Source of the DNA: a bacterium
GTDB lineage: Bacteria; Krumholzibacteriota; Krumholzibacteria; LZORAL124-64-63
Direction: 5' to 3'
Length of the DNA: 14,091 bases
Assembly: GCA_003646045.1 (NCBI GenBank)
Contig: QNDV01000012.1
Coordinates: 1-14,091, forward strand
This document shows, piece by piece, positions 1 to 14,091 of this stretch; positions within the stretch are counted from its first letter, which is position 1; every line of letters starts with the position of its first letter. The notes beneath the pieces are model-generated. The model made no database searches, was not told where the DNA came from, and saw nothing but the letters and a program-made list of their open reading frames with translations. The position numbers were made by a program, and so were the translations under genes.

Positions 1-1443
1 CCCGAAGACCTGGGGGTAGACGGAGCCGCCGATCTCCCGGAGGCCGTGGGTACCGGTGCGTGCATATTCCGCAGTGGCAGCGACATTGCCGTGGAGTTCG
101 CTCCAGGTGGTCAAGGGCAGCACCAGAAAGTCATCCAGGTTGCCCTCGGTGTAACCGACGCGCCACGAACCGGCATTGGATCTGGCCGAGTACCAGATGC
201 GCAGCCAGGTGCCGGCAATCGTGAACGAGGCGCGGTAGACGTTGCTACTGTCCCAACTGCCCGCCACCGGTTGCAGGACGGCGCTACCGGTCACGCTCCA
301 GGCCAGTCCGTCGGAGCTCTCGGCATGGTACAGACTGGTATTTCCGCAGGAGGAGCCGTCAGGATAGGAGATGAACAGCATGGTATACAGGCTACCGTCG
401 AATTGGACGTCGAAGTGCCAGGGAATCCGTCCCGGTTGTACCAGGGTCACCGCTTGCTCCGGACCCCAGGACACGCCGTCCGCCGAGGTACGCCGGTAGA
501 TGTTCTGGTAGCTGGACGTGCACCCCGCGGGTGATTGCAGGTACCACATCGTGTAGTTGGTTCCGTCGTGTATCACCGCCGGCGACATGACATAGTTGGG
601 AATGGTCAACACCAGCTGCAGTTCGCCCCAGTCCACACCGTCGGTGGAGGCGAGACGCCTGAGATAGGACTGCCCGTCGTTGTTGGTCTCCACGTAGTAC
701 AGGATCATTTCGCCGTCCACCAGCAGCATGTCCACGTCGTCGTTGTGCCCCTGCGGTTCCGGCGCCAGGGGGTTGACCACTCCCGGCGGCACGACCCATG
801 CCACATTGTCGTTGCTCACCAGCAGCGACGGGTTTTCGTAATCGTCGTTGCTATTGGGATAGGGCGTCATGCCCATCCAGTATTCGTAGCCGTTCCAGCC
901 GCCCGGCACGTGCACCACATCCGGATGCACAACCTGCCCTGAACCCTCATATGTCGGCGTAACCAGGGGTACGGGCGCATTCCCGCCGTCGAGATCCACC
1001 AGCTCCTCGAAACCGCTGTAGAAAAGGAAGGTCGCCTCCCCGTCGCCAGCATCATCTGCATTGACATTGCCGACGTGCAGCACGAGTTCCCGGGTGCCGC
1101 CGGCATCCAGATCAGCCACGCGGACCCAGACCACACCTTGCTGTCCGGACGGATCCCAGGTCTCGATCCAATAGGGTAAAAGGGTCACCAGATCGGACTC
1201 GGTTACCCGCAGATCGGCGCCGCCCGGCCGGGCCAGGGTGAAATCGAAGTTTCCGGCGTCCAGCACGATCTTTACCTGGTAGTCCACCTGGGCCGCGCCG
1301 GGATTGGTGATGGTTACGGGGAACGCGTGGTCCCAGCCATCCAGGGCCTGGGCCGCAGGTGCGACCATAACGAAACAAGCCGCCAGCATGAGTGCCAGCG
1401 GCCAACAGGTGCAGGGTACGCTCTTGTCCGGTGATGTTCGCAT
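1..1443 (-). CDS. Secreted DUF2341/beta-propeller protein, tandem copy B (C-terminus beyond window)
   Basis: The minus strand is open without a stop for 481 codons from the ATG at 1443 to the window edge, so the gene is partial at its 3' end. AAGGA about 7 nt upstream of the ATG is a good ribosome binding site. The N-terminus is a signal peptide (hydrophobic about residues 14-33, likely cut after Ala-Gln-Ala). Residues about 37-147 are a DUF2341 module (Tyr-Gln-Val-Lys, Trp-Ile-Glu-Thr-Trp, ending in Phe-Tyr-Ser-Gly-Phe-Glu-Glu). A propeller-like region follows with repeated Ser-x-Asp-[Gly/Asn]-x-x-Trp blades and two conserved Cys. The window ends at the start of a LamG-like region. It aligns without gaps of note to the upstream gene, with most residues identical in the propeller. 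Function is unknown; an exported, possibly carbohydrate-related protein is inference. It is probably cotranscribed with the preceding gene, 51 nt away. Confidence 0.85.
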   Translation of the reverse strand, partial: MRTSPDKSVPCTCWPLALMLAACFVMVAPAAQALDGWDHAFPVTITNPGAAQVDYQVKIVLDAGNFDFTLARPGGADLRVTESDLVTLLPYWIETWDPSGQQGVVWVRVADLDAGGTRELVLHVGNVNADDAGDGEATFLFYSGFEELVDLDGGNAPVPLVTPTYEGSGQVVHPDVVHVPGGWNGYEYWMGMTPYPNSNDDYENPSLLVSNDNVAWVVPPGVVNPLAPEPQGHNDDVDMLLVDGEMILYYVETNNDGQSYLRRLASTDGVDWGELQLVLTIPNYVMSPAVIHDGTNYTMWYLQSPAGCTSSYQNIYRRTSADGVSWGPEQAVTLVQPGRIPWHFDVQFDGSLYTMLFISYPDGSSCGNTSLYHAESSDGLAWSVTGSAVLQPVAGSWDSSNVYRASFTIAGTWLRIWYSARSNAGSWRVGYTEGNLDDFLVLPLTTWSELHGNVAATAEYARTGTHGLREIGGSVYPQVFG

Positions 1444-1464
1444 TGCATCTTCCTTGTTGGTATA

Positions 1465-1488
1465 GGAGCCTCCCCGCAGGGAGGCTCC
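1465..1488 (-). terminator. Intercistronic hairpin between the two paralogues
   Basis: Perfect inverted repeat with 10-bp arms (GGAGCCTCCC at 1465-1474 and its complement at 1479-1488) and a 4-nt loop. It starts 6 nt after the stop codon of the upstream gene and ends 21 nt before the ATG of the next. No T-run follows on the minus strand, so it may be a partial terminator or an mRNA-stabilising or processing hairpin that sets the ratio of the two proteins. Confidence 0.6.
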
Positions 1489-1494
1489 ACTGGG

Positions 1495-3696
1495 TCATTT
1501 AACAAGCATCAGTTTCCTGCTGACCACCCGCCGTGGCGTGACCAGTCGATAGAGATAGGTACCGCTGGCGGCAAAATTGCCGCGCTCGTCACGGCCGTCC
1601 CAGGTCACGGTGTTGCGACCCTCGCTTCGAGTCTCGGCCAGCAGCGTCCGCACGACACGCCCCCGCAGATCGATGATCTGCAGAGTGACGAACTCGGACT
1701 GGGGCAGGCTGAAGGCGATGCTGGTTTCGGGATTCAGCGGGTTGGGCACGTTCTGTTCCAGGATAACCATGGGTGTCGGGAGACGGTGTCCGGTTCCATC
1801 GTCCGGCCGGTCATCGATTCCGACCACGCCCGGCTCTCCCACCAGGGCCACGGGCTCGATTTCCGCATACCGGCGCACATACGCATCATCGAAATAGCCG
1901 GTGCCGCCACGGTAGCCCTCCACCGAGAACCGGTTGAGCAGGGCGGGATCCAACGCGCCGGTGGTTGCCACCGTCGTACCGTCCACCCGCAGTTCCGCCG
2001 CACCGGTACCCACCGCGATGGACAGGTGACGCCAGCCCGAGGTCCGCGGCACCCCCGTAGCGGCATAGCTGAAGCCCTCGTTGTGCCAGCTGTAGTTGGC
2101 GGTGGAGGTTCCGGTCCAGATGCCCGTGCCGATACAGTGGTAGGGCGATACCGAGGTGTCCGAATCCCACAGGCGCAGCAAAGCCATGAAATTGACGGCC
2201 GTGCTCATTTCCTCCCAGTACCACACGTTCACGCACACGCCGCCACCGGCGAGATCAGCAAAGACCTGGGGATACGTACTGCTGCCGATTTCCCTCAGGC
2301 CGTGGGTTCCGGTGCGGGGATGGTCGGTTGTCGCAGCGACATTGCCGTTTACCTCGGTCCAGGTATCGGCAGGAGCCACTATGAAGTCGTCCAGGTCGCC
2401 CTCCGTGTAGCCCACGCGCCATTGACCGGCATCGGACCGGGCCGAGTACCAGAGGCGCAGCCAGGTGCCGTCCAGGATATAGGAGGCCCGATAGATGTTG
2501 TTGCTGTCCCAGCCGGAGGCACTCGGTACCAGGATGGGCTCCGGATTGGCTGTCCAGCTGGTGCCGTCTAGGCTTTCGGCGTAATAGAGCTGGGTGTTGC
2601 CACAGGAGGATCCGGCAGGGTAGGAAATGAACACCATGGTGTAGGTGCCGTCCACGAGTTGCACATCGAGATGCCACAACACGCGGCCCGGATGGTCCAT
2701 GAATGCCGCTTCTTCGGGCCCCCAGGCAATGCCGTCCACCGAGGTGCGACGGTAGAAATCCTGTACCGGCGCGGTACAGCCGCCCGCCGAACTCACATAC
2801 CACATGGTGTAGACACTGCCGTCGTGGATCACCGTGGGAGACATGACGTAGTTGGGCAGGGTGATGACCGTCTGGGCCGTTCCCCAGTCGGCACCGTCGG
2901 TTGATGCCAGGCGCTTCATGTAGGTGGTGCCGTTGTTGTTGGTCTCGTTGTAGTACATGATCATCTCGCCGCCGACCAGCAGCATGTCCACATCGTCGTT
3001 GTGTCCCGGCGGTTCGGGAGCCAGCGGGTTGACCGCCCCCGTCGGTACGACCCAGGTCGTGTTGTCATTGCTCGCGAGGATAGACGGATTCTCGTAGTCG
3101 TCATTGCTGTTGGGGTAGGGCGTCATGCCCATCCAGTACTCGTAGCCGTTCCAGCCTCCCGGCACGTGGATCACGTCCGGATGCACGACCTGGCCCGAGC
3201 CGTCGTAGGTCGGAGTCACCAGCGGCAGGGGTGCGTTCATTCCCGCCGAGACGACAAGCTCCTCGAAGCCGCTGTAGAAAAGAAAGGTCCCTGTGCCGTC
3301 ACTGGCGGCAACTGCTTCCGGATTGCCGGCCAGCAGGGCGATGACGGTGGTACCCCCGGCAGGCAATGCCGGCAAGCGCACCCAGGCCACGGCATGCTCC
3401 GCCACCGGGTCCCAGGTCTCGATCCAGAAGGGGTACGCCACGCCGTCGAGATCAGTGAAGCGCACATCCGCACCGTCGGATTCGGCCAGACTGAAGTCGA
3501 AGTTGGCGCTGTTCAGGACAACCTTGACCTGGTAGTCGGTGAGCGCACCGCCCGGATTGGTTACGGCGACGGGCCATTGATAAGCCCAGTCGTTCATCAA
3601 CTGGGCACCGGCCGGTACAGCCAGGGCAAGGCAGACGGCCAGTAGACCCGCTACTGTGAGCATTCGACCGTGGGTCGTGATCATTGGATGATTCAT
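1495..3696 (-). CDS. Secreted DUF2341/beta-propeller protein with FlgD-like sorting domain, copy A
   Basis: A 733-residue exported protein of unknown function. The open frame extends to 3789, but the ATG at 3696 (or its neighbour at 3699) follows a GGGGGA ribosome site and leads directly into a signal peptide, likely cut after Ala-Gly-Ala near residue 31. Domain order: DUF2341 (about 38-145), a propeller-like region (about 158-435) with Ser-x-Asp-x-x-x-Trp motifs starting at 209, 265, 319 and 375, a LamG/concanavalin-like module (about 445-615), and a C-terminal beta-sandwich (about 645-733). The last has a Gln-Asn-Val-Pro-Asn-Pro-Leu-Asn-Pro start, a Gly-Thr-Tyr-Leu-Tyr-Arg motif and a Lys-Leu-Met-Leu-Val-Lys end, as in FlgD-like/type IX-secretion sorting domains. 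The protein is therefore probably secreted or surface-anchored. The propeller could be a glycosidase-like or purely binding module; I see no assignable catalytic residues. Confidence 0.9.
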   Translation of the reverse strand: MNHPMITTHGRMLTVAGLLAVCLALAVPAGAQLMNDWAYQWPVAVTNPGGALTDYQVKVVLNSANFDFSLAESDGADVRFTDLDGVAYPFWIETWDPVAEHAVAWVRLPALPAGGTTVIALLAGNPEAVAASDGTGTFLFYSGFEELVVSAGMNAPLPLVTPTYDGSGQVVHPDVIHVPGGWNGYEYWMGMTPYPNSNDDYENPSILASNDNTTWVVPTGAVNPLAPEPPGHNDDVDMLLVGGEMIMYYNETNNNGTTYMKRLASTDGADWGTAQTVITLPNYVMSPTVIHDGSVYTMWYVSSAGGCTAPVQDFYRRTSVDGIAWGPEEAAFMDHPGRVLWHLDVQLVDGTYTMVFISYPAGSSCGNTQLYYAESLDGTSWTANPEPILVPSASGWDSNNIYRASYILDGTWLRLWYSARSDAGQWRVGYTEGDLDDFIVAPADTWTEVNGNVAATTDHPRTGTHGLREIGSSTYPQVFADLAGGGVCVNVWYWEEMSTAVNFMALLRLWDSDTSVSPYHCIGTGIWTGTSTANYSWHNEGFSYAATGVPRTSGWRHLSIAVGTGAAELRVDGTTVATTGALDPALLNRFSVEGYRGGTGYFDDAYVRRYAEIEPVALVGEPGVVGIDDRPDDGTGHRLPTPMVILEQNVPNPLNPETSIAFSLPQSEFVTLQIIDLRGRVVRTLLAETRSEGRNTVTWDGRDERGNFAASGTYLYRLVTPRRVVSRKLMLVK

Positions 3697-3759
3697 CATA
3701 TCCCCCGTCTTTGTTTTCCGAAATATTACGGACATTTGGATACTTTTTGATGCTGGGGG

Positions 3760-3789
3760 ATTATTGCATATCTGATTTGTGGATATCAA
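3760..3789 (-). promoter_or_regulatory. Candidate sigma70-like promoter for the secreted-protein pair
   Basis: Minus-strand TTGATA (3789-3784), 18-nt spacer, AATAAT (3765-3760), in the most AT-rich stretch of the window. Transcription would start near 3753, leaving a leader of about 55 nt before the ATG at 3696. This supports the internal start codon over an upstream one at 3789. Confidence 0.4.
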
Positions 3790-3848
3790 TAGATTTAATA
3801 TACCGTGGATACCGATGTTCCTGCTCCGGCAGATGGTGCAGGATCGCA

Positions 3849-3866
3849 GTCGGGTACGAACCCGAC
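3849..3866 (-). terminator. Hairpin downstream of the radical SAM gene
   Basis: Perfect 7-bp stem (GTCGGGT at 3849-3855, complement at 3860-3866) with a 4-nt loop, 77 nt past the radical SAM stop codon and before the next promoter. No T-run follows, so it is a weak terminator candidate. The rest of the 3697-3942 gap holds the candidate promoter and no gene that I can support. Confidence 0.35.
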
Positions 3867-3942
3867 GGTATGCAAGGTGATGGCAGCGGCATGGATCATG
3901 GTTGCCGGCCGCGTACCGGCTTTGGCGATCACGTAGTCCGGT

Positions 3943-5058
3943 TCATGATTCCGGTTGAGACGATATCTCGCCAAGATCGAATTCCCGGTGGTAACAAAGG
4001 CGCGTGCGCCCTGTCCCCGGATCCTGGAGATGGAACGAGTTGCCCTGGCACAGGTCCCATTCGCTACAACCGACACACTCACCCGTACGCATCCAGCTAC
4101 GGTCGCGGAAGGGTTGATACCGGGTTTCCCACACCTCACAGAAGTCATCCTCGTGGATGTTCCCCTGGGAGAAGCTGCGATCGATATTGGGACAGGCCAG
4201 GATGGCTCCGTCGGCCATCACGCCGGCCACGTTGATTCCCGCGCGACAAAAGAAGGGGTGGTTGCGCACCGTCGTGTCGCAGGCACCCAGGTAGCCCGAC
4301 TCGCTGTAGGCAACGGTCGGACCCGGTGTCCCGCGACGGGCAGCGGTCCAGGCCATCAGGCGCTGGAATCCCACCTTGTCCAGCATCAGGTCGGGATCGG
4401 CGGTGGCACGACCGATGGGGGAGACAGTGAACAGACGCCAGTGCCTAACACCCAGTTCCGCCAACAGGTCGCGGGTCTCATCCAGGAGATCAAGGTTGCG
4501 CCGATGCACGCAGGTGACCACGTCCAGTTTCTGGATCCAGGGAGCTGCCGTCAGGAGGCGCAGGGCGGTACTGGCCCGCGCAAACGAACCGGTCCTCCCG
4601 CGCAGCCAATCGTGGACCTCCGGCGGGCCGTCCAAACTGACGGTAATAGTACGCATCCCCGCCACCCGCGCGGACTCGACCTCCTGCGGCGACCAGGCCC
4701 AGCCGTTGGTTACCATCCCCCAAGGGAATCCCAGTGCGGTGATGGACCGGCCCAGCTCGAAGAAGCCCCGGTACAACAGGGGTTCGCCGCCGGTCAGCGC
4801 CACGGTGATTCGCGACGGGTCGTGGCGGCGGCGAATGCCCTCCAATACCGCTATCACACTCTCTACCGGCAGGTCAGGCATGGAAGCGTCGGCGACACAG
4901 TCGCTGCCGCAATGGCGGCAGGCCAGATTGCAACGCTGGGTCAGTTCAAAAAATAGATAGTTGAGGTCGTGCAGCTTGCGCTGGGTCGCCTGGTGCAGGG
5001 GCAGCAAACGGCGGTGCAGCCAGCGGCCAACCGGACCCTTGTCCCGGATCGCATTCAC
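3943..5058 (-). CDS. Radical SAM/SPASM enzyme of the rSAM/lipoprotein system
   Basis: A 371-residue radical SAM enzyme. Cys43, Cys47 and Cys50 form the CX3CX2C motif for the SAM-binding 4Fe-4S cluster; Gly-Gly-Glu-Pro at 90-93 and Ser-Leu-Asp-Gly at 141-144 are further family motifs. The C-terminus is SPASM-like: Cys271-x12-Gly-x4-Cys289, then Cys328-x2-Cys331-x5-Cys337 and a final Cys355. The usual Cys after Cys337 is absent and replaced by Gln-Gly-Asn-Ser-Phe-His-Leu. That Gly-Asn-x-x-His-Leu tail and the lipoprotein partner match my recollection of the family catalogued as 'radical SAM enzyme, rSAM/lipoprotein system'. The start is GTG at 5058, overlapping the lipoprotein stop by 4 bases, which suggests translational coupling. 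Modification of the partner lipoprotein in the cytoplasm before export is inference; no product is known to me. Confidence 0.88.
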   Translation of the reverse strand: MNAIRDKGPVGRWLHRRLLPLHQATQRKLHDLNYLFFELTQRCNLACRHCGSDCVADASMPDLPVESVIAVLEGIRRRHDPSRITVALTGGEPLLYRGFFELGRSITALGFPWGMVTNGWAWSPQEVESARVAGMRTITVSLDGPPEVHDWLRGRTGSFARASTALRLLTAAPWIQKLDVVTCVHRRNLDLLDETRDLLAELGVRHWRLFTVSPIGRATADPDLMLDKVGFQRLMAWTAARRGTPGPTVAYSESGYLGACDTTVRNHPFFCRAGINVAGVMADGAILACPNIDRSFSQGNIHEDDFCEVWETRYQPFRDRSWMRTGECVGCSEWDLCQGNSFHLQDPGTGRTRLCYHREFDLGEISSQPES

Positions 5059-5564
5059 CGGTCGTCGCCGGTCGGCGGTGCCGGCAGTTCCACCTTGGCG
5101 ACGGGAGGCCCATATTCGACGGCATCACTCATAACGATATTGATGCCGTGCTGCTCCCACGTGCCAAGATCGAACGATCCGCTGCCGGGTTCGGTCTGGA
5201 CGAGATTCAACAAAACATCGGCGGTCGGGAAGGGGCCGCCGTTGTCGGCGCCATCGATGTCGCGAACCGTCAGCACACAGGCCTGCTGGTCATTGGTGAC
5301 ACAATTGATGAACGCATTTTCCCGGTCTATGGACCAGATACCACGAGCATCGGTAGTGTCTGTCCCGGTGTTGTGGAACGAGACCTCGATACCGGGAACA
5401 GGTACACCGAGATCATCCACCACCTGACCGTCGACAAGGACCTTGCCGGTGGGCACACCGTATTCGGGCATGGGTCCGTACTCGACCGGTTCCGTGGAGT
5501 CAGTGCAGCCGGAGCCGAGGATTGCGCCGAACACCAAGCAGAGACAGCGGTAGATCAGCCTCAT
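5055..5564 (-). CDS. Radical SAM-associated putative lipoprotein
   Basis: A 169-residue predicted lipoprotein. The ATG at 5564 has AAAGGTGG about 7 nt upstream and starts a typical signal peptide, so I prefer it to the in-frame GTG at 5582. The lipobox is Leu-Gly-Ser-Gly-Cys20, with Gly rather than Leu/Val at -3. After the Cys comes an acidic linker with Val-Glu-Tyr-Gly-Pro (27-31) and Glu-Tyr-Gly-Val-Pro (34-38). Next is a carboxypeptidase-regulatory-like beta fold (about 39-145) with Gly-Val-Pro-Val-Pro-Gly-Ile and Asp-Ile-Asp-Gly-Ala-Asp-Asn-Gly-Gly. A second Val-Glu-Tyr-Gly-Pro-Pro sits near the C-terminus (149-154). The Tyr-Gly-Pro element and the Asp-x-Asp-Gly-x-x-Asn-Gly-Gly motif resemble lipoproteins paired with radical SAM enzymes in Bacteroidetes. 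It is likely both the partner and the substrate of the next gene; that role is inference. Confidence 0.85.
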   Translation of the reverse strand: MRLIYRCLCLVFGAILGSGCTDSTEPVEYGPMPEYGVPTGKVLVDGQVVDDLGVPVPGIEVSFHNTGTDTTDARGIWSIDRENAFINCVTNDQQACVLTVRDIDGADNGGPFPTADVLLNLVQTEPGSGSFDLGTWEQHGINIVMSDAVEYGPPVAKVELPAPPTGDDR

Positions 5565-5639
5565 GGCAGGACCACCTTTCACCGGGATTCGGAATGAGAT
5601 TACGGGATTGAATCAGCGCCATCAACAGATATGTCCCCT

Positions 5640-5667
5640 ATGATACATTGGTTCTCTGAGGTATCAG
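5640..5667 (-). promoter_or_regulatory. Candidate promoter of the lipoprotein/radical SAM operon
   Basis: Minus-strand CTGATA (5667-5662), 16-nt spacer, TATCAT (5645-5640), giving a leader of about 70 nt before the ATG at 5564. A 6-bp inverted repeat (TGATAC at 5641-5646, GTATCA at 5661-5666) coincides with the two hexamers and could be either chance or an operator. The opposite strand has TATGAT at 5639-5644 without a convincing -35. Confidence 0.3.
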
Positions 5668-5684
5668 TCGGTGCGCGCAGGAAC

Positions 5685-5787
5685 ATGAAACACGACTTCG
5701 TCCACGGGGGTAACTCCTATCAGCCCTTTCACCGTCATAGGCACCACCCTGGCAGTCGTCCTGACTGTCCTCACCGCCCTCTCCCTG
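5685..5787 (+). other. Probable frameshifted 5' end of the alpha/beta hydrolase gene
   Basis: The hydrolase frame stays open upstream of its first ATG back to a stop at 5686-5688. It encodes a strongly hydrophobic stretch (5731-5790: Phe-Thr-Val-Ile-Gly-Thr-Thr-Leu-Ala-Val-Val-Leu and on) that looks like a membrane anchor, but has no ATG, GTG or TTG. In the next frame an ATG at 5685 sits behind AGGA. Removing one base from the G5 run at 5706-5710 would join that ATG to the hydrophobic segment and the hydrolase. Either the sequence has a homopolymer error or the gene carries a real frameshift. Confidence 0.55.
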
Positions 5788-6582
5788 ATGGTCCACCGCA
5801 GCTTCGGTGCGCCCTGCGTGGAAGAGAACTCGGACCCCGAAAGCCTGGGCTTCGCTTTTCGCCAGGCGTGGCTACCCACTGCACGAAGCAAGCGACTTTT
5901 CGCCTGGCTGCTGCCGGCGGGACACCCTGCCGCCACCGTGGTAATGATGCACGGCTGGGGCGGCAACGCCGAGTTCCTGTTGCCCCTGGCCGGCCCCTTT
6001 CTGGCCGTGGGGCTGAACGTGCTACTGGTGGACGCCCGCAACCACGGACGCAGCGACCATGACGGACATTCCTCCCTGCCCAGGTTCGCCGACGACCTGG
6101 GCAACGCCGTGGACTGGGTCCGGCAGCAGACCGAACACGCGGGCCCGGTGGCCCTGTGCGGTCATTCCCTGGGTGGCGGGGCCGCCCTGTTGTGCGCGGC
6201 GGAACGGGAAGACATCGCGGCGGTGATCAGCCTGGCCACCTTCGCCCACCCCACGGACATGATGCGCCGGTTCATGCGGAAGGCCCGGATTCCGGATCTG
6301 CTGGTCCCGTTGGTGCTGCGTTACGTGGAACGGGTGATCGGCCGACGTTACGACGACATCGCCCCGATCAATACCATCTGCCGCGTGACCTGCCCGGTCC
6401 TCGTGATGCACGGTTCATCCGACCGGACCGTCCCTCACGGGGACATGGAGGCGATGCGCAGGAAATGCCAGGGCCATCCCCCGGAATTCGTGGCCATACC
6501 CGGTGCCGGCCATTCGTCGGTCAAGAGGTTCATGGAGCACGAAGGGGCGTTGGTGGATTTCCTGAAACGGGCGGGTTTCTGA
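5788..6582 (+). CDS. Serine alpha/beta hydrolase, probably membrane-anchored
   Basis: A 264-residue alpha/beta-hydrolase fold protein counted from the first ATG in frame. The oxyanion region is His-Gly-Trp-Gly-Gly (55-59), the nucleophile elbow Gly-His-Ser127-Leu-Gly-Gly, the acid most likely Asp212 in Gly-Ser-Ser-Asp-Arg-Thr-Val-Pro, and the base His242 in Gly-Ala-Gly-His-Ser. Asp-Ala-Arg-Asn-His-Gly-Arg-Ser (82-89) is typical of esterase/lysophospholipase-like members. The substrate cannot be told from sequence. The ATG at 5788 has no ribosome site and lies at the end of a hydrophobic segment, so the true start is probably at 5685 with a frameshift between. The gene is divergent from the lipoprotein operon and convergent with hppA; no operon partner is visible. 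Confidence 0.85.
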   Translation: MVHRSFGAPCVEENSDPESLGFAFRQAWLPTARSKRLFAWLLPAGHPAATVVMMHGWGGNAEFLLPLAGPFLAVGLNVLLVDARNHGRSDHDGHSSLPRFADDLGNAVDWVRQQTEHAGPVALCGHSLGGGAALLCAAEREDIAAVISLATFAHPTDMMRRFMRKARIPDLLVPLVLRYVERVIGRRYDDIAPINTICRVTCPVLVMHGSSDRTVPHGDMEAMRRKCQGHPPEFVAIPGAGHSSVKRFMEHEGALVDFLKRAGF

Positions 6583-6623
6583 GGGGGGCGGTACCGGCGG
6601 TGTGCCGTGTGGGGCCCCGACGA

Positions 6624-6660
6624 CCAGCCGGCCCGCCCCACGGGGGGACGGGCCGGCTGG
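6624..6660. terminator. Shared hairpin between convergent hydrolase and hppA genes
   Basis: A 12-bp perfect stem (CCAGCCGGCCCG at 6624-6635 with its complement at 6649-6660), extended by four more pairs (6636-6639 with 6644-6647) after a single bulged A at 6648, and a 4-nt loop. It lies 41 nt past the hydrolase stop and 20 nt past the hppA stop. Neither strand has a T-run, so it may work as a bidirectional hairpin terminator or a 3'-end stabiliser. Confidence 0.6.
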
Positions 6661-6680
6661 AATCAGATACGCGTTGCAGC

Positions 6681-8699
<2,019 letters not shown>

Positions 8700-8721
8700 G
8701 GCGATTCCTCCTGCGGGGAGC

Positions 8722-8740
8722 GGCCCGAACTGCCCGGGCC
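8722..8740 (-). promoter_or_regulatory. Leader hairpin just upstream of the hppA ribosome site
   Basis: Inverted repeat GGCCCG (8722-8727) / CGGGCC (8735-8740) with a 7-nt loop, 9 nt upstream of the AGGAGG. It may be only a GC-rich chance stem. I see no strong promoter in the 8700-8773 leader. Confidence 0.25.
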
Positions 8741-8773
8741 ACGAAGGTCTGAAATGAGCGTGGGCTCGCAAAA

Positions 8774-8803
8774 GGCAGACGCCCCGTTATAGGAGCGTCT
8801 GCC
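8774..8803 (-). terminator. Rho-independent terminator after the FKBP lipoprotein gene
   Basis: A perfect 9-bp stem (GGCAGACGC at 8774-8782, complement at 8795-8803) with a 12-nt loop, followed on the minus strand by TTTT (8773-8770). It lies 76 nt past the FKBP stop codon and separates that operon from hppA. It is the only hairpin in the window with a T-run. Confidence 0.75.
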
Positions 8804-8879
8804 AGAGTTGCGCAGAAATGCTAGCAGCATACATCCCCGGGCGCAAGCAATCTGTCGGCAGCTGTCCGGGAACGGTTAT

Positions 8880-9665
8880 CTACTCGCCGCCAACCTTTAC
8901 CAGTTCCACATCGAAACACAAAGTGGAGTTGGGCGGAATGGATCCCGTACCGCGGCTGCCGTAACCCATGACCGACGGGATGATCAGGCGGGCGGAAGTC
9001 CCCTCCGCCATGCCCAGCAGGGCCATGTCCCAGCCGGGGATCACCATGCCCCGTCCCAGGGAGAAATCATAGGGTCGGCCCCGATCGCGGGATGAATCGA
9101 ACTGCTCGCCCTTGGCGCCGTCTTCCCACAACCAGCCCGTGTAGTGGACACTGATCTTGTCACCCAGTTCCGCCGCCGGGCCGGTGCCCGCAGTCAGGAT
9201 CTCGATGCGCACCCGGGGCAGATCGACAATCTCCACGTCGAACATCAGGGTGGCGTTGGCCGGAATCACCGGCGGCCTGCCGTCGGGGCCATAGGCCAGG
9301 TCGGGGCTGATCAGGAGGGTACGCTTGCCCCCCACGTGCATACCGGTGATGCCCTGCTCCCAGCCCGAAATCACCATACCGCGGCCGATGGGGAAACCGA
9401 TGGGTTCACCACGTTCCACGGAACTGTCGAAAGGCGTTTCGGCCTTGGCGCCGGTCTCCGTATTCCAGACCCAACCCGTGTAGTGGGCGAGCACGAAATC
9501 CCCGGGCTCCACGGTGTCACCCTGACCCAGGGTCGAATCCACGTAGGTCAGGCCGGGCGTAATTTCCAGCCAGGGCATTTCCTCTTCCTTGCAGCCGACG
9601 GCCGCCATCAGCAACAGGATCAGCAGGGCCGCCAGCGCGGGCCGAAGCAGGGATACGGTCATCAT
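8880..9665 (-). CDS. Lipoprotein with two FKBP-type peptidyl-prolyl isomerase domains
   Basis: A 261-residue protein. A signal peptide with Ala-Ala-Val-Gly-Cys25 marks it as a lipoprotein, so it acts outside the cytoplasm. Two FKBP domains follow (about 38-149 and 155-258), each with His-Tyr-Thr-Gly-Trp, Phe-Asp-Ser-Ser, Gly-Arg-Gly-Met-Val-Ile-x-Gly-Trp and a closing Phe-Asp-Val-Glu strand; the second also has an Ile-Pro-Pro-Asn-Ser-Thr loop. Such enzymes catalyse cis-trans isomerisation of prolyl bonds and help fold exported proteins. The start is a double ATG at 9665/9662 with GAGAGGA a few bases upstream; it overlaps the stop of the O-antigen ligase gene by 4 bases (ATGA), so the two are almost certainly one transcript. 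A folding role for envelope proteins is inference. Tandem FKBP domains in one lipoprotein are less usual than a single one. Confidence 0.93.
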   Translation of the reverse strand: MMTVSLLRPALAALLILLLMAAVGCKEEEMPWLEITPGLTYVDSTLGQGDTVEPGDFVLAHYTGWVWNTETGAKAETPFDSSVERGEPIGFPIGRGMVISGWEQGITGMHVGGKRTLLISPDLAYGPDGRPPVIPANATLMFDVEIVDLPRVRIEILTAGTGPAAELGDKISVHYTGWLWEDGAKGEQFDSSRDRGRPYDFSLGRGMVIPGWDMALLGMAEGTSARLIIPSVMGYGSRGTGSIPPNSTLCFDVELVKVGGE

Positions 9666-10933
9666 TCATCCTCTCGAAGCGGAGTTGTTTCGGGTCCAAC
9701 AGGCTGGGCGGACCGCGAGCCGGCCCAATGTCGCACACCTGTTGTCTCTTGGCAATTGCCCGCCGCGGCCAGGGCCAGACCCAGGACCACGTAGAGCAAC
9801 ATCTCCACCTCGTCATCGGTCTGGTAGACCTGGAACATCCCCGCCATCGTGATACCCGCCTGGACGGCGAGGGCACCAGCGGCCAGCCAGGCCCTGGATC
9901 CGCCTCGGCGCCAGGCCCGGAACAGAACCCAACAGACCGCCACCAACAGGGCCACAGCCGCCAGGATCCCCGGCAAGCCCGCGTTGACGCCGTGCATGAG
10001 CAGGTCATTGTGGGAATGGGCCCTGACCTCGTAGTATCCGCTTACCTCGTGGCCGGCCATCATCACATCGAAGTTGCCCGGACCCCAGCCTGTCAGTGGT
10101 CGGGCAGCGATGCCTTCGAGAGAACTTTCCCACAGGTTGAGGCGCGTCTCATGGCGATGCATCCAGGTCAGACGTTCCAGGTGCAGTCGCATCTCCGGCA
10201 AGGCCAGGCTCGCCAGCGCCGGTACCACCAGCAGAGCCGCACCCAGCAGACGCCGCCGCCCCCGCAGCAGTAGCACGAGCACGACGAAGCCCACCGCCAC
10301 GCCCAACAGCGGGCTGCGGGCGTAGGACCAGGCCAGGGCCAGGCCGTGCAGCGCCAACAACAATACGAGCCAGAGCCGCGCCCGCCGCCAGGATGTGAAC
10401 AGCAGCCATGCCGCCAGCATCAGGATCAGGATCAGCAGTTGCCCACCCCAGGACAGATGGTGTCCGAAGAAAGCCGCGGCCGAGTTGTGTCCCCACTCGG
10501 TCATCAGGCTGCGCCCGCCGCGCAGGGGATCTATCCCGGAAAAATGCTGCCAGATGCCGAAGAGTGACGCCACACCGCCGGCAACCAGGGTCACGCCGAT
10601 CAACCGCGGCAGATGGCGGACCCGGCCTCCCACCAGTACCGGAATCGCCACCAGCATCAGCTTGATCCACAGTTCCTCGCCGAACTTGTGCCAATGGCGG
10701 GGCGCCGGAGGAGCAGCCAGAACGGACACGAGATAGACTGCGACCAGCGCCGTCAGGGCCAGCAGCACCGCGCGCGGTGGCCAGGCTGCGCGGCTGCGCT
10801 CCCGCACGGCCACGATGATCGCTGCGACCAGAACCAGGCCGGTGCAGGTGCTGGCCACGCTCAGGGACACGGGCAGGGCCGCCGCAAGAATATAGAGCGG
10901 CAACAGGCGGAGGATTGTCTCGCGGTCGGTCAT
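9662..10933 (-). CDS. O-antigen ligase / Wzy-type polymerase family membrane protein
   Basis: A 423-residue protein with roughly a dozen hydrophobic segments. The large loop carries the Wzy_C-family features: Tyr-Ala-Arg-Ser-Pro-Leu (204-209), Arg-Pro-Leu-Thr-Gly-Trp-Gly-Pro-Gly-Asn-Phe (278-288), and the His-Ser-His-Asn-Asp motif at 306-310 followed by a helix with Asn-Ala-Gly-Leu-Pro-Gly. The family joins or polymerises lipid-linked glycans on the periplasmic face of the inner membrane; sequence alone does not tell ligase from polymerase. The ATG at 10933 is chosen because GGAGAGG lies 8 nt upstream; an in-frame GTG at 10966 has no such site. It stands divergent from a flippase operon, which fits a polysaccharide assembly locus, and it is coupled to the FKBP lipoprotein. 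Confidence 0.88.
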   Translation of the reverse strand: MTDRETILRLLPLYILAAALPVSLSVASTCTGLVLVAAIIVAVRERSRAAWPPRAVLLALTALVAVYLVSVLAAPPAPRHWHKFGEELWIKLMLVAIPVLVGGRVRHLPRLIGVTLVAGGVASLFGIWQHFSGIDPLRGGRSLMTEWGHNSAAAFFGHHLSWGGQLLILILMLAAWLLFTSWRRARLWLVLLLALHGLALAWSYARSPLLGVAVGFVVLVLLLRGRRRLLGAALLVVPALASLALPEMRLHLERLTWMHRHETRLNLWESSLEGIAARPLTGWGPGNFDVMMAGHEVSGYYEVRAHSHNDLLMHGVNAGLPGILAAVALLVAVCWVLFRAWRRGGSRAWLAAGALAVQAGITMAGMFQVYQTDDEVEMLLYVVLGLALAAAGNCQETTGVRHWAGSRSAQPVGPETTPLREDE

Positions 10934-10984
10934 GTGATCCCTCTCCTGCGGGCCTGCGAATTTCACCTATCACGGCGGACGGCC

Positions 10985-11014
10985 AGCATAAGCCTGGTCC
11001 GGGCGAACTGTCCA
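10985..11014 (-). promoter_or_regulatory. Candidate promoter of the ligase-FKBP operon
   Basis: Minus-strand TGGACA (11014-11009), 18-nt spacer, TATGCT (10990-10985). Transcription would start near 10978, about 45 nt before the ATG at 10933. Confidence 0.45.
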
Positions 11015-11022
11015 GACCAGGC
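10992..11022. promoter_or_regulatory. Perfect inverted repeat in the divergent control region (possible operator)
   Basis: GCCTGGTC at 10992-10999 is exactly complementary to GACCAGGC at 11015-11022, with a 15-nt spacer. It covers the spacer and -35 of the minus promoter and ends 7 nt before the -35 of the plus promoter, a position from which one regulator could control both operons. No regulator gene is in the window. Confidence 0.4.
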
Positions 11023-11028
11023 CACGCC

Positions 11029-11058
11029 TTGACCCTGTGGCACGACGGGACCTATCAT
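11029..11058 (+). promoter_or_regulatory. Candidate sigma70-like promoter of the flippase operon
   Basis: TTGACC (11029-11034), 18-nt spacer, TATCAT (11053-11058); each hexamer is one base from consensus. A transcript starting near 11065 would have a short leader and would start just upstream of the AGGGAA ribosome site at 11071-11076, supporting the ATG at 11082. Confidence 0.55.
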
Positions 11059-11081
11059 GGCCCGCCATGAAGGGAACTTCC

Positions 11082-12515
11082 ATGCGCGGCAAACGCGGCC
11101 TACTGCAAAACCTGGGTATGCTCACGGCGAGCCAGATCGCGGCCCAGCTGCTGAACGTCTGGGCCCTGGTCTATCTGGCGGACCGGCTGGGACCCCATTG
11201 GTTCGGCGTAGTGCAAGTGGGTGTGGCTTTCCTGGCCTACGCCCTGACCACCGCCGAGTGGGGCATGTTCAGCCTGGGCATCCGCGAGATCGCGCGTCAG
11301 GACAAACCCGAAACCATCCTCGCCTATGCCAGGTCCCACACCGGTATCATGGGCCTGCAGGCGCTGGTGGTCGCCGGCCTGGGCCTGCTTGTGCTGCCCC
11401 ACCTGCCGTTCTGGTCCAACGACCCCTGGATCTACGTGCTCTATCTGGCGGCGGTCCTGCCCCAGGTGTTCATGTATTCGTGGATCGGCGTCGGCCTGGA
11501 GCGCATCCCCTGGGTCGGAGTCGTCAAGTCACTGCGCAGCCTGGTGTACGCCGCGTTGATACTGTTGCTGCTGGACCCCCTGAGCCGCCTCACCGGGATG
11601 CCTGCGCCACGTTGGGTACCACTGCTTTTCCTGACCGCCATGATCGCCGGCAACGTGGTCATGGGTGTGGTGGTCCGCGGCTGGTTCGGTCAGTGGGTGT
11701 GGCCGACCCTGCCCGCCTGGTCCGAAGTGCGCCGGCGCTGGCGCGAGACGGTTCCCCTGGGCGCTGGTATCGTGGTGCTGCGCATCCTGTTGAACGTGGA
11801 CCTGATCATGCTGGGCGCGCTGGCTGCTCCCGCCATGGCCGGCCACTACGCGGCGGCCTCACGCATGATCTTCCTGATGGTGGTGGCCATCGAGGTGTTG
11901 TGGTCGGCCCTGCTGCCCCGGCTGTCGCGGCTGGCCCAACTGGACCACGCGGGGTTCCGCAGGGCCTTCAACCTGTACCTGGGATTCGTACTGGCCGGGC
12001 TGCTGCCCCTGGCGGTGGGCGGTGTCCTCACCGGACCTGATCTGGTGGCACTGTTCTACGGCCCCGACTATGTCGCCGCCGGCCCTGTCTTCCAGGTGCT
12101 GGCCGTGTCCTACTCGTTGCTGGCGGTGGCCATGTTCCTGGGCAACACACTGGTGGCCATGGACCGTCAGACTGCCTACTTTCCGCCCCTGCTGGCAGCC
12201 GCCGTGGTGGCTGTGGGAGCCAATGCCTTTCTGGTGCCCCGCAACGGCGTGGAGGGTGCCGCCTGGGGCATGTTGCTGGCCCACTCGGGCCTGGCCGTGT
12301 CATTGATATCCATCCAGCGCCGCCTGTTCGTTCGGCGCTTGGGACTGTTGTTGGCCCTGCTGGTCCCCGCGGTCCTGGCCATGGTGCTCGTAGTCAGGGT
12401 CGGTGCGGCCTGGCACGTCGCCCTGCGCATAGTCGCCGGCGCCACCGCGTACCTGCCCCTGGCCGCCGGACCGCTGCTCTGGTTCCGTCGGAGCCAACGA
12501 TGGGAGACGACGTGA
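11082..12515 (+). CDS. Wzx-like polysaccharide flippase
   Basis: A 477-residue, highly hydrophobic protein with about 12-14 predicted membrane helices, of the polysaccharide-export branch of the MOP superfamily. The N-terminus (Leu-Thr-Ala-Ser-Gln-Ile-Ala-Ala-Gln, then Leu-Gly-Pro-x-x-Phe-Gly near residue 36) and the central Asn-Val-Asp-Leu-Ile-Met-Leu-Gly with Ala-Gly-x-Tyr-Ala-Ala-Ala-Ser-Arg are typical. It should move undecaprenyl-linked oligosaccharides from the inner to the outer face of the cytoplasmic membrane for the ligase/polymerase. The ATG at 11082 follows AGGGAA with a 5-6-nt gap and a well-placed promoter; the in-frame GTG at 11037 and ATG at 11067 are less likely. Its stop overlaps the next start by 4 bases. 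Substrate is unknown. Confidence 0.9.
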   Translation: MRGKRGLLQNLGMLTASQIAAQLLNVWALVYLADRLGPHWFGVVQVGVAFLAYALTTAEWGMFSLGIREIARQDKPETILAYARSHTGIMGLQALVVAGLGLLVLPHLPFWSNDPWIYVLYLAAVLPQVFMYSWIGVGLERIPWVGVVKSLRSLVYAALILLLLDPLSRLTGMPAPRWVPLLFLTAMIAGNVVMGVVVRGWFGQWVWPTLPAWSEVRRRWRETVPLGAGIVVLRILLNVDLIMLGALAAPAMAGHYAAASRMIFLMVVAIEVLWSALLPRLSRLAQLDHAGFRRAFNLYLGFVLAGLLPLAVGGVLTGPDLVALFYGPDYVAAGPVFQVLAVSYSLLAVAMFLGNTLVAMDRQTAYFPPLLAAAVVAVGANAFLVPRNGVEGAAWGMLLAHSGLAVSLISIQRRLFVRRLGLLLALLVPAVLAMVLVVRVGAAWHVALRIVAGATAYLPLAAGPLLWFRRSQRWETT

Positions 12516-13552
12516 AAGCCTGGCGTGATCGCCGCCTGACGCTGCTGCTCGATTACCGGGATGCCCTGCGCCAACGGGTGCAGGAATACGAGAGTCTCGA
12601 CGTGGAAGCCCTCGGGGAGAATCTGCGCGAAGCCGGCTGGACCGTGGATATCCGCACCTTCGAGGATGTGGCCAATAGCGGCGAACTGCCCGGCGAGTGC
12701 ATCATCCACTACACCAGCAGTCAGGAACCTGGCTACCGGCGCTTCGTGGACGACCTGCTGTTCGAGTTGTCCCGGTCCAACGAACTGGTGCCCCGCTACG
12801 AGATCTTCCGCGCCCACGAGGACAAGCTATACCAGGAACTGCTGCGACGGCGCCTGGGCCTCGCCCCCCTGGCTGCACGGCTCTTCGGCAACCTCAAGGG
12901 CCTGACCGGACACATAGACGATCTGGCCTACCCGGCGGTACTCAAGACGGCGGCGGGCTTCCAGAGCACCGGCGTCTCCCTGGTGAGTGACGCGGACGCC
13001 CTGCGCCGGCGGGTGCGCCGCCTGAACCGGCCGCCGGGGCTGGCGATATACAGCCTGAAGCAGTGGCTCAAACGTTGGATCCTGCGGGGACGCTACCGTC
13101 CCGAACAGTACGAGGACTGCGTATATGGCGGACCATTCGTAGTGCAGCAATACGTGCCCGGCGCCACCAACGACTGGAAGGTGCTGGTTTTTGGTGACCG
13201 CTGCTGGGTACTGAGGCGTGGAGTGCGACAGGGTGATTTCCGGGCCAGCGGCAGTGGCATGTTCAGCTGGAAAACGCCGCCTGACGCGGTACTCGATCTG
13301 GCCTCCGACACCTTCGCGCGCCTGGACGTACCCCTGGTCTCACTGGATATCGTGGCAGCCAGGGGCAAGTGCCGGCTCATCGAATACCAGGCGCTGCACT
13401 TCGGCACCTACACCCTCGACCACGCCCCCGGCCACTTCCGGCGCGGCCCCGCCGGGTGGCGGCACCACGAGGGCAGCGCCGACCTGGACCAGGAGTACGC
13501 CCGCGCCCTGCTGCTCTGGCTCGAAAAGCACCGACAGGAGAACACCGCGTGA
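12512..13552 (+). CDS. ATP-grasp family protein in polysaccharide operon
   Basis: A 346-residue soluble protein. GTG at 12512 is preferred (GGGAG 5 nt upstream, GTGA overlap with the flippase stop), though an in-frame ATG at 12500 is possible. Residues about 1-115 have no clear motif. The ATP-grasp fold is indicated by Tyr-Pro-Ala-Val-Leu-Lys145, a Gly-rich loop (149-154), Gln-Gln-Tyr-Val-Pro-Gly (212-217), Asp-Trp-Lys-Val-Leu-Val-Phe-Gly (221-228), Phe-Arg-Ala-Ser-Gly-Ser-Gly (243-249), and the metal-binding strands Ser-Leu-Asp279-Ile and Ile-Glu291-Tyr-Gln. Gln293 replaces the usual Asn after the Glu. ATP-grasp enzymes join a carboxylate to an amine or thiol through an acylphosphate; here an amino-acid or other acyl decoration of a glycan is a plausible inference. 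It may belong to the sugar-transfer-associated ATP-grasp group. Confidence 0.8.
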   Translation: MKAWRDRRLTLLLDYRDALRQRVQEYESLDVEALGENLREAGWTVDIRTFEDVANSGELPGECIIHYTSSQEPGYRRFVDDLLFELSRSNELVPRYEIFRAHEDKLYQELLRRRLGLAPLAARLFGNLKGLTGHIDDLAYPAVLKTAAGFQSTGVSLVSDADALRRRVRRLNRPPGLAIYSLKQWLKRWILRGRYRPEQYEDCVYGGPFVVQQYVPGATNDWKVLVFGDRCWVLRRGVRQGDFRASGSGMFSWKTPPDAVLDLASDTFARLDVPLVSLDIVAARGKCRLIEYQALHFGTYTLDHAPGHFRRGPAGWRHHEGSADLDQEYARALLLWLEKHRQENTA

Positions 13553-14091
13553 AGATCCTCGTGCAGAACAGCATCTTCTTTCCCAACGTGATCGGGGGGG
13601 CGGAGATCTCGTCCCACCTGCTGGCCCTGCAATTGGCCCAGCGGGGTTGGCAGGTGGACGCCCTGGCCACCAGCGGTCGCCGCGACGGCCCCGCCGGCCT
13701 GTCCACGCGACCTCTCGGCGACACCGGCGGACAGGTGTTCGAGGCCACGTCCGCTGGGTTCTACGACCTTTACCGGGATGGGGGTCCGGCCCCCGCGCCG
13801 GGGATCCTGATCCGCGGCCTGCATCACTTCGCCGCCGTTCATTCTCCCCGCTGGCTGAAGCTGGCCCGCGAAGCCCTGGACCGCACCCGACCCGACCTGC
13901 TCCACACCAACACCATCGTGGGCATGACCCCCGTGGTTTGGCAGGCGGCCCGCGAACGGAATATCCCGGTGGTGCACACCCTGCGGGATTACCATCTGCT
14001 CTGCCCCCGCACGACCCTGCTACGATCGAATGGCGCGGAATGCGAGAACAAGCCGCTGCCCTGCGCAGTGCTGGCCCGGCTCAAATTGGCA
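13549..14091 (+). CDS. Group-4 glycosyltransferase (GT-B), N-terminal half, cut by window edge
   Basis: 181 codons, open to the window end. The GTG at 13549 overlaps the previous stop by 4 bases (GTGA) and has AGGAG 8-9 nt upstream. Near the start it has Ile-Gly-Gly-Ala-Glu (about 15-19) followed by a long helix, as in the acceptor-binding N-terminal domain of GT4 enzymes. Further on come Pro-Asp-Leu-Leu-His-Thr-Asn and Val-Val-His-Thr-Leu-Arg-Asp-Tyr-His. The nucleotide-sugar-binding C-terminal domain lies outside the window, so donor and linkage are unknown. It probably adds a sugar to the lipid-linked intermediate exported by the flippase two genes upstream. The frame contains a G7 run at 13596-13602, read through without interruption. 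Confidence 0.88.
   Translation, partial: MKILVQNSIFFPNVIGGAEISSHLLALQLAQRGWQVDALATSGRRDGPAGLSTRPLGDTGGQVFEATSAGFYDLYRDGGPAPAPGILIRGLHHFAAVHSPRWLKLAREALDRTRPDLLHTNTIVGMTPVVWQAARERNIPVVHTLRDYHLLCPRTTLLRSNGAECENKPLPCAVLARLKLA

Follow-up and report, generated by a model that had tools for sequence, protein, structure and literature searches.

In a 14,091-nucleotide stretch of bacterial DNA (contig QNDV01000012.1, positions 1 to 14,091; hereafter the window), we identified a minus-strand gene pair encoding a small lipoprotein and a radical S-adenosylmethionine (SAM) enzyme with a SPASM domain, and the best reading of this pair is that it forms a protein-modifying system. The X-Tyr-Gly (XYG) motifs in the tails of the lipoprotein are very probably the site at which the enzyme reacts, and the analogy with known spliceases suggests that the reaction at these motifs may be backbone splicing, to which we assign a probability of about 0.5. 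The pair is genuine, and it is divergently related to a known and unexplained pair, the TIGR04133/TIGR04134 radical SAM/lipoprotein system, a named system for which our literature search found no product. The gene pairing, XYG as the feature shared by the partner proteins, a conserved signal peptide and, in our trees, a common clade with TIGR04103 enzymes all come directly out of the comparisons described below.

The initial annotation had placed a SPASM-type radical SAM enzyme beside a small lipoprotein, with a GTGA overlap of the lipoprotein stop and the enzyme start. Both genes were found at that place and strand, Pfam returned Radical_SAM (61.9 bits) and SPASM (26.3 bits) for the enzyme, and the overlap is present in the sequence, as are the Tyr-Gly-Pro and DIDGxxNGG motifs (EYGPMP, EYGVP, EYGPP, and DIDGADNGG in the lipoprotein). 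The lipoprotein gene lies upstream, at 5055-5564(-), and is read from an ATG at 5564 to a TGA at 5057-5055 (169 amino acids); the enzyme gene lies downstream, at 3943-5058(-), and is read from a GTG at 5058 to a stop ending at 3943 (371 amino acids). The observed overlap suggests that the two are probably co-translated. The list of open reading frames (ORFs) puts the lipoprotein start at a GTG at 5582; the ATG at 5564 was preferred because relatives begin at the equivalent position and because AAAGGTGG, read from the sequence, closely precedes it. Profile searches against NCBIfam bore out the predicted TIGR04133 and TIGR04134 families as the best match of each protein, and fell short in one respect, since the enzyme (377.6 bits, E 5e-113, model positions 8-347 of 350) lies under the curated TIGR04133 cut-off of 425 bits. 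The lipoprotein scored 40.1 bits, marginally above the TIGR04134 cut-off of 39.8, and this was its sole NCBIfam match; the outcome named as refuting the pair, an unrelated radical SAM family scoring best and a lone lipoprotein, was not what the searches returned. The features of the pair are as follows.

5055..5564, minus strand: lipoprotein, TIGR04134-like, 169 amino acids, proposed substrate (TIGR04134 match, homologues)
5505..5564, minus strand: signal peptide and lipobox Cys20 (conservation in 31 sequences)
5466..5483, minus strand: XYG site 1, EYGPMP, Tyr29 (Y29 in 26 of 31 sequences)
5451..5465, minus strand: XYG site 2, EYGVP, Tyr35 (Y35, G36 and P38 in 31 of 31 sequences)
5130..5444, minus strand: folded beta domain, residues 41-145, carboxypeptidase-regulatory/transthyretin-like sandwich (AlphaFold2, Pfam, Foldseek)
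5235..5261, minus strand: DIDGADNGG loop of the beta domain, residues 102-110 (D102, D104 and G109 invariant in alignment A1)
5103..5117, minus strand: XYG site 3, EYGPP, Tyr151, in the C-terminal tail (Y151 and G152 in 27 of 31 sequences)
5055..5058, minus strand: GTGA overlap of the lipoprotein stop and the enzyme start (sequence)
3943..5058, minus strand: radical SAM/SPASM enzyme, TIGR04133-like, 371 amino acids, GTG start (TIGR04133 and Pfam matches, tree)
4909..4932, minus strand: CNLACRHC, the CxxxCxxC ligands (C43, C47, C50) of the SAM-binding iron-sulfur cluster (alignments)
3994..4248, minus strand: SPASM region with C271, C289, C328, C331, C337 and C355 (all invariant in alignment A2)

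Across the sequences compared, the feature common to the partner proteins is X-Tyr-Gly, usually X-Tyr-Gly-x-Pro, located in their tails or right after the lipidated Cys. We analyzed 85 enzyme neighbourhoods by script and by eye (the best 80 loci, the window, L091 and three plasmid loci) and found a partner containing Tyr-Gly (YG) at 80 of them, 79 in a curated list plus L010, whose partner is a contig-end fragment with CMYGTLPP and CMYGAPPS. Three loci without such a partner (L045, L063 and L079) have at most 250 bases upstream, and none was found in the available flanking sequence of L074 and L077. The curated set holds 97 partners, retained from 104 after seven unrelated ORFs were dropped, and includes those of L024, L025, L037, L038 and L043, which the automatic lipobox test missed and which were added by eye; as these partners were selected for YG, counts on them describe the motif and are not proof of it. 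They occur in three forms: a YG tail with a beta domain, as in the window; YG directly after the lipidated Cys (FQAC-YGTPQ); and short proteins with a signal peptide, at least one XYG motif and a hydrophilic tail, e.g., CEKPGPDMYGPPLAMYGPPMYGPP... (L026) or the 61-residue CYGAPH protein of L041. Pro occupies position +3 of the first YG in 79 of the 97 partners, and the residue before the Tyr is Glu in 32, Cys in 32, Met in 17, Lys in 5, Asp in 4 and others in the rest; in 32, the lipidated Cys directly precedes the first YG. When ten partners were scanned against NCBIfam, only that of L021 exceeded the TIGR04134 cut-off; another four gave sub-threshold matches to this model and the remaining five gave none, indicating that the curated model misses many partners.

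The motif is concentrated next to the enzyme gene, as counts independent of that selection show. Among lipobox-like ORFs, YG.P was present in 83/146 within 1.5 kb of an enzyme vs. 3/75 beyond 2.5 kb (Fisher 1.7e-16; ORFs at 1.5-2.5 kb uncounted), and YG alone in 106/146 vs. 20/75. The longest ORF just upstream of the enzyme contained YG.P in 54/69 cases and YG in 60/69; for the longest ORF just downstream these figures were 9/70 and 29/70, and eight of the nine downstream YG.P cases correspond to the partner itself in downstream position. Sequence searches by themselves gave 92 lipoproteins, counting that of the window; YG was present in the tail region of 91 by script and of 90 by eye (P0192 has MYAPP, and its only YG lies in the domain; P0161 is a shortened piece), in residues 16-75 of 84 and in the last 45 residues of 42. 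Seven newly fetched regions yielded three new family enzymes, two repeats (L130 and L131) and two non-family radical SAM genes (L128 and L129). All three previously unseen family loci have an adjacent YG lipoprotein (CYGVP, MYGCP and CYGMS); the partner of L125 was missed by the pattern scan and found by reading every frame of one strand. A pattern scan, made with no frame-by-frame reading, found no YG lipoprotein beside L128 and L129.

Some loci depart from the simple arrangement of one partner and one enzyme. Upstream of position 2514 in L009 there are five tandem small lipoprotein genes, of which the curated YG list includes three, with one enzyme gene, and upstream of position 6001 in L055 four YG lipoproteins stand in tandem with one enzyme gene. 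The L043 partner (1294 to 2067 bases after the start of the enzyme match) has YGAP right after the signal peptide (IIAQYGAP), seemingly with no lipobox Cys, and lipidation may therefore be dispensable there.

A single-sequence search with the window lipoprotein gave 40 other homologues, and a profile search gave 91. In 31 sequences, the mean pairwise identity of residues 1-20 is 0.82, vs. 0.56 for the beta domain (residues 41-145). A signal peptide is usually less conserved than a folded domain, so that the inverse order seen here is what one would expect if a cytosolic enzyme recognised the precursor before its export. The mean AlphaFold2 confidence per ten residues is mostly 93-98 in the beta domain (72 at 101-110 and 85 at 141-150) and lower in the XYG tails (residues 21-40 gave 52 and 77, and the part past residue 150 gave 61-65). 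At E-values up to 0.01, Pfam matched only CarboxypepD_reg, under its cut-off, and Foldseek returned only low-coverage beta-sandwich matches, including intradiol dioxygenases, DUF3823 and the SusC N-terminal domain. Cys88 and Cys96 are conserved in the close family (alignment A1). Some homologues have lost XYG sites: in four members of alignment A1 the C-terminal YGPP is gone and the N-terminal site remains, while the lipoproteins of genome G053 and P0176-P0179 lack the N-terminal YG and keep a C-terminal LYGPP. In G053 DIDGxxNGG is also gone, and yet the enzyme is adjacent and in frame.

As to the proposal that YG and DIDGxxNGG are together the motifs of the pair, YG turned out to be near-universal, while a DxD-type loop was matched in only 43 of the 97 partners and DIDGxxNGG is absent from short partners. 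We set DIDGxxNGG aside as the target motif, since short domain-less partners exist and YG is kept in them.

The enzyme belongs to the TIGR04133 family. Every other NCBIfam model scored at most 109.9 bits (TIGR04053), and in trees of 36 and 33 enzymes it falls in a clade with TIGR04133 enzymes (support 100/100), apart from other SPASM families. C43, C47 and C50 are invariant in alignment A2 and in 36/36 enzymes of a wider alignment. Within the best 120 of 2315 matches, the 119 other enzymes are 51-83% identical to it. In eight genomes, ten TIGR04133-like genes scored at least 345 bits vs. 151 bits for the next-best radical SAM gene; a G042 enzyme lies between family and non-family, at 179.5 bits. 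The family boundary is thus fairly clear, despite the window branch falling under the curated cut-off. SkfB, SuiB and the anaerobic sulfatase maturase anSME are among the nearest solved folds; an identity as anaerobic sulfatase maturase was rejected, as TIGR04133 is the best NCBIfam match. The pair resembles the TIGR04133/TIGR04134 system in that its genes are adjacent and in the same orientation, in the HCGSDC and CxGNxxH motifs of the enzyme and in a lipoprotein with a YG tail and a beta domain. It differs from that system in the sub-threshold enzyme score, in having three XYG sites, one of them C-terminal, in Cys88/Cys96 of the lipoprotein and in its Krumholzibacteriia host.

The splicing proposal comes from the relatives of this family. 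In the 36-enzyme tree, a clade with 95/95 support joins TIGR04133 (17 rows, 100/100) to TIGR04103, TIGR03913 and their relatives; once three long branches are removed, leaving 33 enzymes, support for the grouping with TIGR04103/TIGR03913 is 99/96. Approximately unbiased (AU) tests rejected a union of TIGR04133 with MftC (p 0.0285), TIGR04053 (p 0.0221) and NirJ/TIGR04347 (p 0.0031). Seven residues, G51 (in HCGS), T182, W207, A218, L226, G255 and R320, occur both in the window-type enzyme and in the five TIGR04103/GDL core enzymes, but only infrequently among 11 others. On a Nostoc plasmid, a TIGR04103 gene (853 bits) lies between a Nif11 precursor ending in ALYGLPPELF and a gene for a 71-residue protein; in this core, x-P follows the X-Y-G. 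X-Y-G is the splicease site, and one study describes GYGLPI tags that worked at two sites in FtsZ, a GYG-containing tag that worked in an Affibody fusion, a PlpXY enzyme that required no leader, and tetrazine ligation to PlpXY products at GYG sites (PMC10533398). PlpX is placed in IPR026482 and PlpY is described as a truncated precursor-peptide recognition element (RRE) in a second source (PMC11002830). In L099 (1462-3483), a sister-clade TIGR04103-like enzyme is fused to a tail rich in Cys that holds eight XYG motifs (three copies of EYGVEP, two of DYGILPP, and one each of EYGVLPP, DYGSEPP and DYGDLPP), as though enzyme and substrate were joined in one protein. The L099 genome, which is deltaproteobacterial, also encodes two TIGR04133-like enzymes.

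Set beside PlpX-type spliceases and TIGR04103 (nif11-class peptide radical SAM maturase 3), to which PlpX is taken to belong, the window system shares the X-Y-G site, the sister-clade position and the residues listed above. It differs in its putative substrate, an exported lipoprotein instead of a peptide with a Nif11/NHLP leader (no such leader was found on the window partner with Pfam at E up to 0.01, and a lipoprotein signal peptide is present instead), in the lack of a detected PlpY-like gene, in one SPASM Cys fewer, and in a TIGR04103 score of 101.6 bits, where the cut-off is 725. The GDL-motif/DUF1843 system (TIGR03913) is likewise of the sister clade, and four of eight of its DUF1843 peptides have a YG near the N-terminus; its peptides differ in being small and without a signal peptide, with the motif relaxed.

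Several observations weigh against splicing. The chemistry, and with it the product, is inferred from sequence. In the same tag study, most FtsZ tag variants were unspliced (PMC10533398), so XYG alone is insufficient for PlpXY. The SPASM Cys four residues past C337, present in the Nostoc TIGR04103 enzyme, is missing from the window enzyme and from TIGR04133, which has near-invariant residues of its own (W113, D179, C183 and H343). Profile scores do not single out TIGR04103: the window enzyme scored 109.9 bits with TIGR04053 and 104.9 with AhbD (both matches covering the core only) and 101.6 with TIGR04103, and for the Nostoc enzyme AhbD (154.1) edges TIGR04133 (152.0). The correspondence of IPR026482 to TIGR04103 is an assumption, the groups for the AU tests were named after the first tree had been seen, and the trees include neither PlpX (WP_019503880.1) nor AhbD (searches of 8 genomes and of 78 gave no AhbD match at the chosen E-value). 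A homology search for PlpY over the window, the first 80 loci and about a dozen others came up empty, with no hit beyond the query's own locus better than E 0.96; the single query was the 71-amino acid protein downstream of the Nostoc TIGR04103 enzyme, assigned to the place of PlpY by position, and a divergent PlpY could escape it. The best 80 of 583 loci that make up our sample are mostly Bacteroidales, the first YG has no Pro at +3 in 18/97 partners, YG occurs in only 4/8 DUF1843 peptides of the GDL branch, and no XYG partner was seen in the stretches read for the sister-clade enzymes L100, L107 and L121.

Two of these sister-clade loci have neighbours of their own. The L100 enzyme (1459-2499, in G042) is distant and stands beside a 60-residue ORF without YG (ending at 1456) and an ABC-type substrate-binding protein, and is possibly another peptide system. 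In Tropicibacter, a TIGR03913-like radical SAM gene (L121, 1680-4488) lies beside a trypsin-like peptidase gene.

The same tails could host another chemistry, and a Tyr-centred crosslink (cyclophane or ether), a mycofactocin-like oxidation or decarboxylation, or an epimerisation is a possible though rather unlikely alternative to splicing. MftC and PqqE, SPASM maturases of Tyr-containing peptides, are also relatives of the enzyme, and its nearest solved folds and its SPASM Cys pattern, unlike that of TIGR04103, would be compatible with such a reaction. In our trees, however, MftC and NirJ, and in the 36-enzyme tree PqqE too, lie outside the clade of TIGR04133 and TIGR04103, and MftC and PqqE differ further in the chaperones MftB and PqqD encoded beside them. 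The conservation pattern, in which the Tyr and the next Gly are kept and the following residue varies, also fits X-Y-G better than the aromatic-x-x motif of cyclophanes. It remains that SPASM enzymes catalyse many reactions, as a published account sets out (PMC8326336).

Two further explanations would move the reaction away from the tails. If the modified residue were in the folded domain, at the DIDGxxNGG loop or the paired Cys, the YG tails would serve only for enzyme docking; D102, D104, G109, C88 and C96 are indeed invariant in the close family, but enzyme-adjacent partners can be too short to hold a domain (in 19/97 the mature part is no longer than 85 residues, and YG is present nonetheless), a DxD-type loop was matched in only 43 of the curated partners, and the G053 lipoprotein without DIDGxxNGG keeps both LYGPP and an adjacent enzyme, making this explanation very improbable. 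We consider it nearly as improbable that the tails stay unmodified and act in sorting or binding while the enzyme makes something else, such as a small molecule or a lipid. A lipidated Cys before the first YG, as in a third of the partners, is where sorting signals sit, and modification of the lipoprotein is so far a prediction; against this, the enzyme and the lipoprotein are nearly always close, the genomes with a strong match to one are those with a strong match to the other (3/80 and 2/119, though only one genome per set, G053 and G206, was newly found), some functionally characterised relatives of the enzyme are peptide maturases, and the signal peptide shows unusual conservation.

Under the splicing proposal, the enzyme would bind the cytosolic precursor through its signal peptide and tail, as their conservation suggests, and would work on the unfolded lipoprotein tails at X-Tyr-Gly-x-Pro before export. 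In the radical SAM superfamily, a 5'-deoxyadenosyl radical abstracts hydrogen; by analogy, such an abstraction would here be followed by the excision of tyramine, the larger part of a tyrosine residue, from as many as three Tyr-Gly sites, with a predicted mass change of -135.0757 Da per spliced site. The product would then be exported and lipidated, and would present up to three electrophilic ketoamides near the membrane, where these could trap nucleophiles, for example as a membrane-bound protease inhibitor. This last role is a guess of low confidence from the activity of spliceotides, for which protease inhibition is reported in two sources (PMC11117315; PMC10373908).

Extended to the whole TIGR04133/TIGR04134 class, which spans Bacteroidota, Spirochaetota, Myxococcota and Krumholzibacteriota, the proposal would make it a large splicease-like branch with natural membrane lipoprotein substrates, in which the lipidated Cys is converted in about one third of cases; we put this at somewhat less than even odds. 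If so, the residue converted in 32/97 partners would be the lipidated N-terminal Cys, leaving an alpha-ketoamide at the membrane anchor, and we know of no such envelope modification. Should the XYG reading hold, Bacteroidales of the gut and of the environment, together with less-known phyla, would be able to splice the backbone of lipoproteins that they export. Lipoprotein ketoamides would then open a new way into the biology of the envelope and provide enzymes for protein labelling for which a second protein may be unneeded. The statement of the initial annotation that no modification had been described agrees with our literature search, which covered the family names and this chemistry on lipoproteins and found nothing on TIGR04133/TIGR04134; subscription papers were largely outside its reach, and Scott et al. 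2022 among them may overlap.

The host had been predicted to lie outside Bacteroidetes, and the evidence points to Krumholzibacteriia. Among the matches listed, the closest enzymes with organism names are from Candidatus Krumholzibacteriia (79 and 76% identity). In a search of ten genomes, the proton pyrophosphatase encoded in the window matched those of G001, G002 and G053 with 88, 90 and 83% identity across the aligned part, and six more genomes gave matches of at most 68%; the guanine-plus-cytosine content is 61-67%. The accompanying idea that the system had until now been confined to Bacteroidetes did not hold, since RefSeq already annotates it in Treponema saccharophilum and the enzyme also occurs in loci titled Myxococcota, Deltaproteobacteria, Spirochaetales and Spirochaetaceae.

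Within its phylum the system is sporadic. Across 80 genomes of the phylum, strong matches to the enzyme (at least 354 bits) were restricted to G001, G002 and G053, and so were strong matches to the lipoprotein (E 6e-41 or better). The presence of the enzyme in G001 and G002 was already known before this search, leaving G053 as the independent case of co-occurrence. Lipoprotein matches in three more of these genomes (E 6e-5 or weaker) were to pieces of long ORFs. In a set of 119 genomes, strong matches of both genes fell in the same two, G090, already known to carry the enzyme, and G206, an independent case. Weaker matches without the partner were found for the lipoprotein profile in G009, G014, G050 and G177 and for the enzyme in G042, and genome co-occurrence is thin evidence.

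Around the pair, the same-strand downstream neighbour of the enzyme encodes a DUF2341 protein (1495-3789) and the divergent upstream neighbour an alpha/beta hydrolase (5788-6582); no third gene of the lipoprotein/enzyme unit was seen among the ORFs of the window. The neighbouring DUF2341 proteins at 1-1443 and 1495-3789(-), the second with a FlgD-like C-terminal domain, are alike by eye and perhaps represent a tandem duplication. Finally, a lipoprotein-like protein with two FKBP stretches is encoded at 8880-9665(-), with a 4-base overlap with the end of an O-antigen-ligase-like gene at 9662-10966(-).

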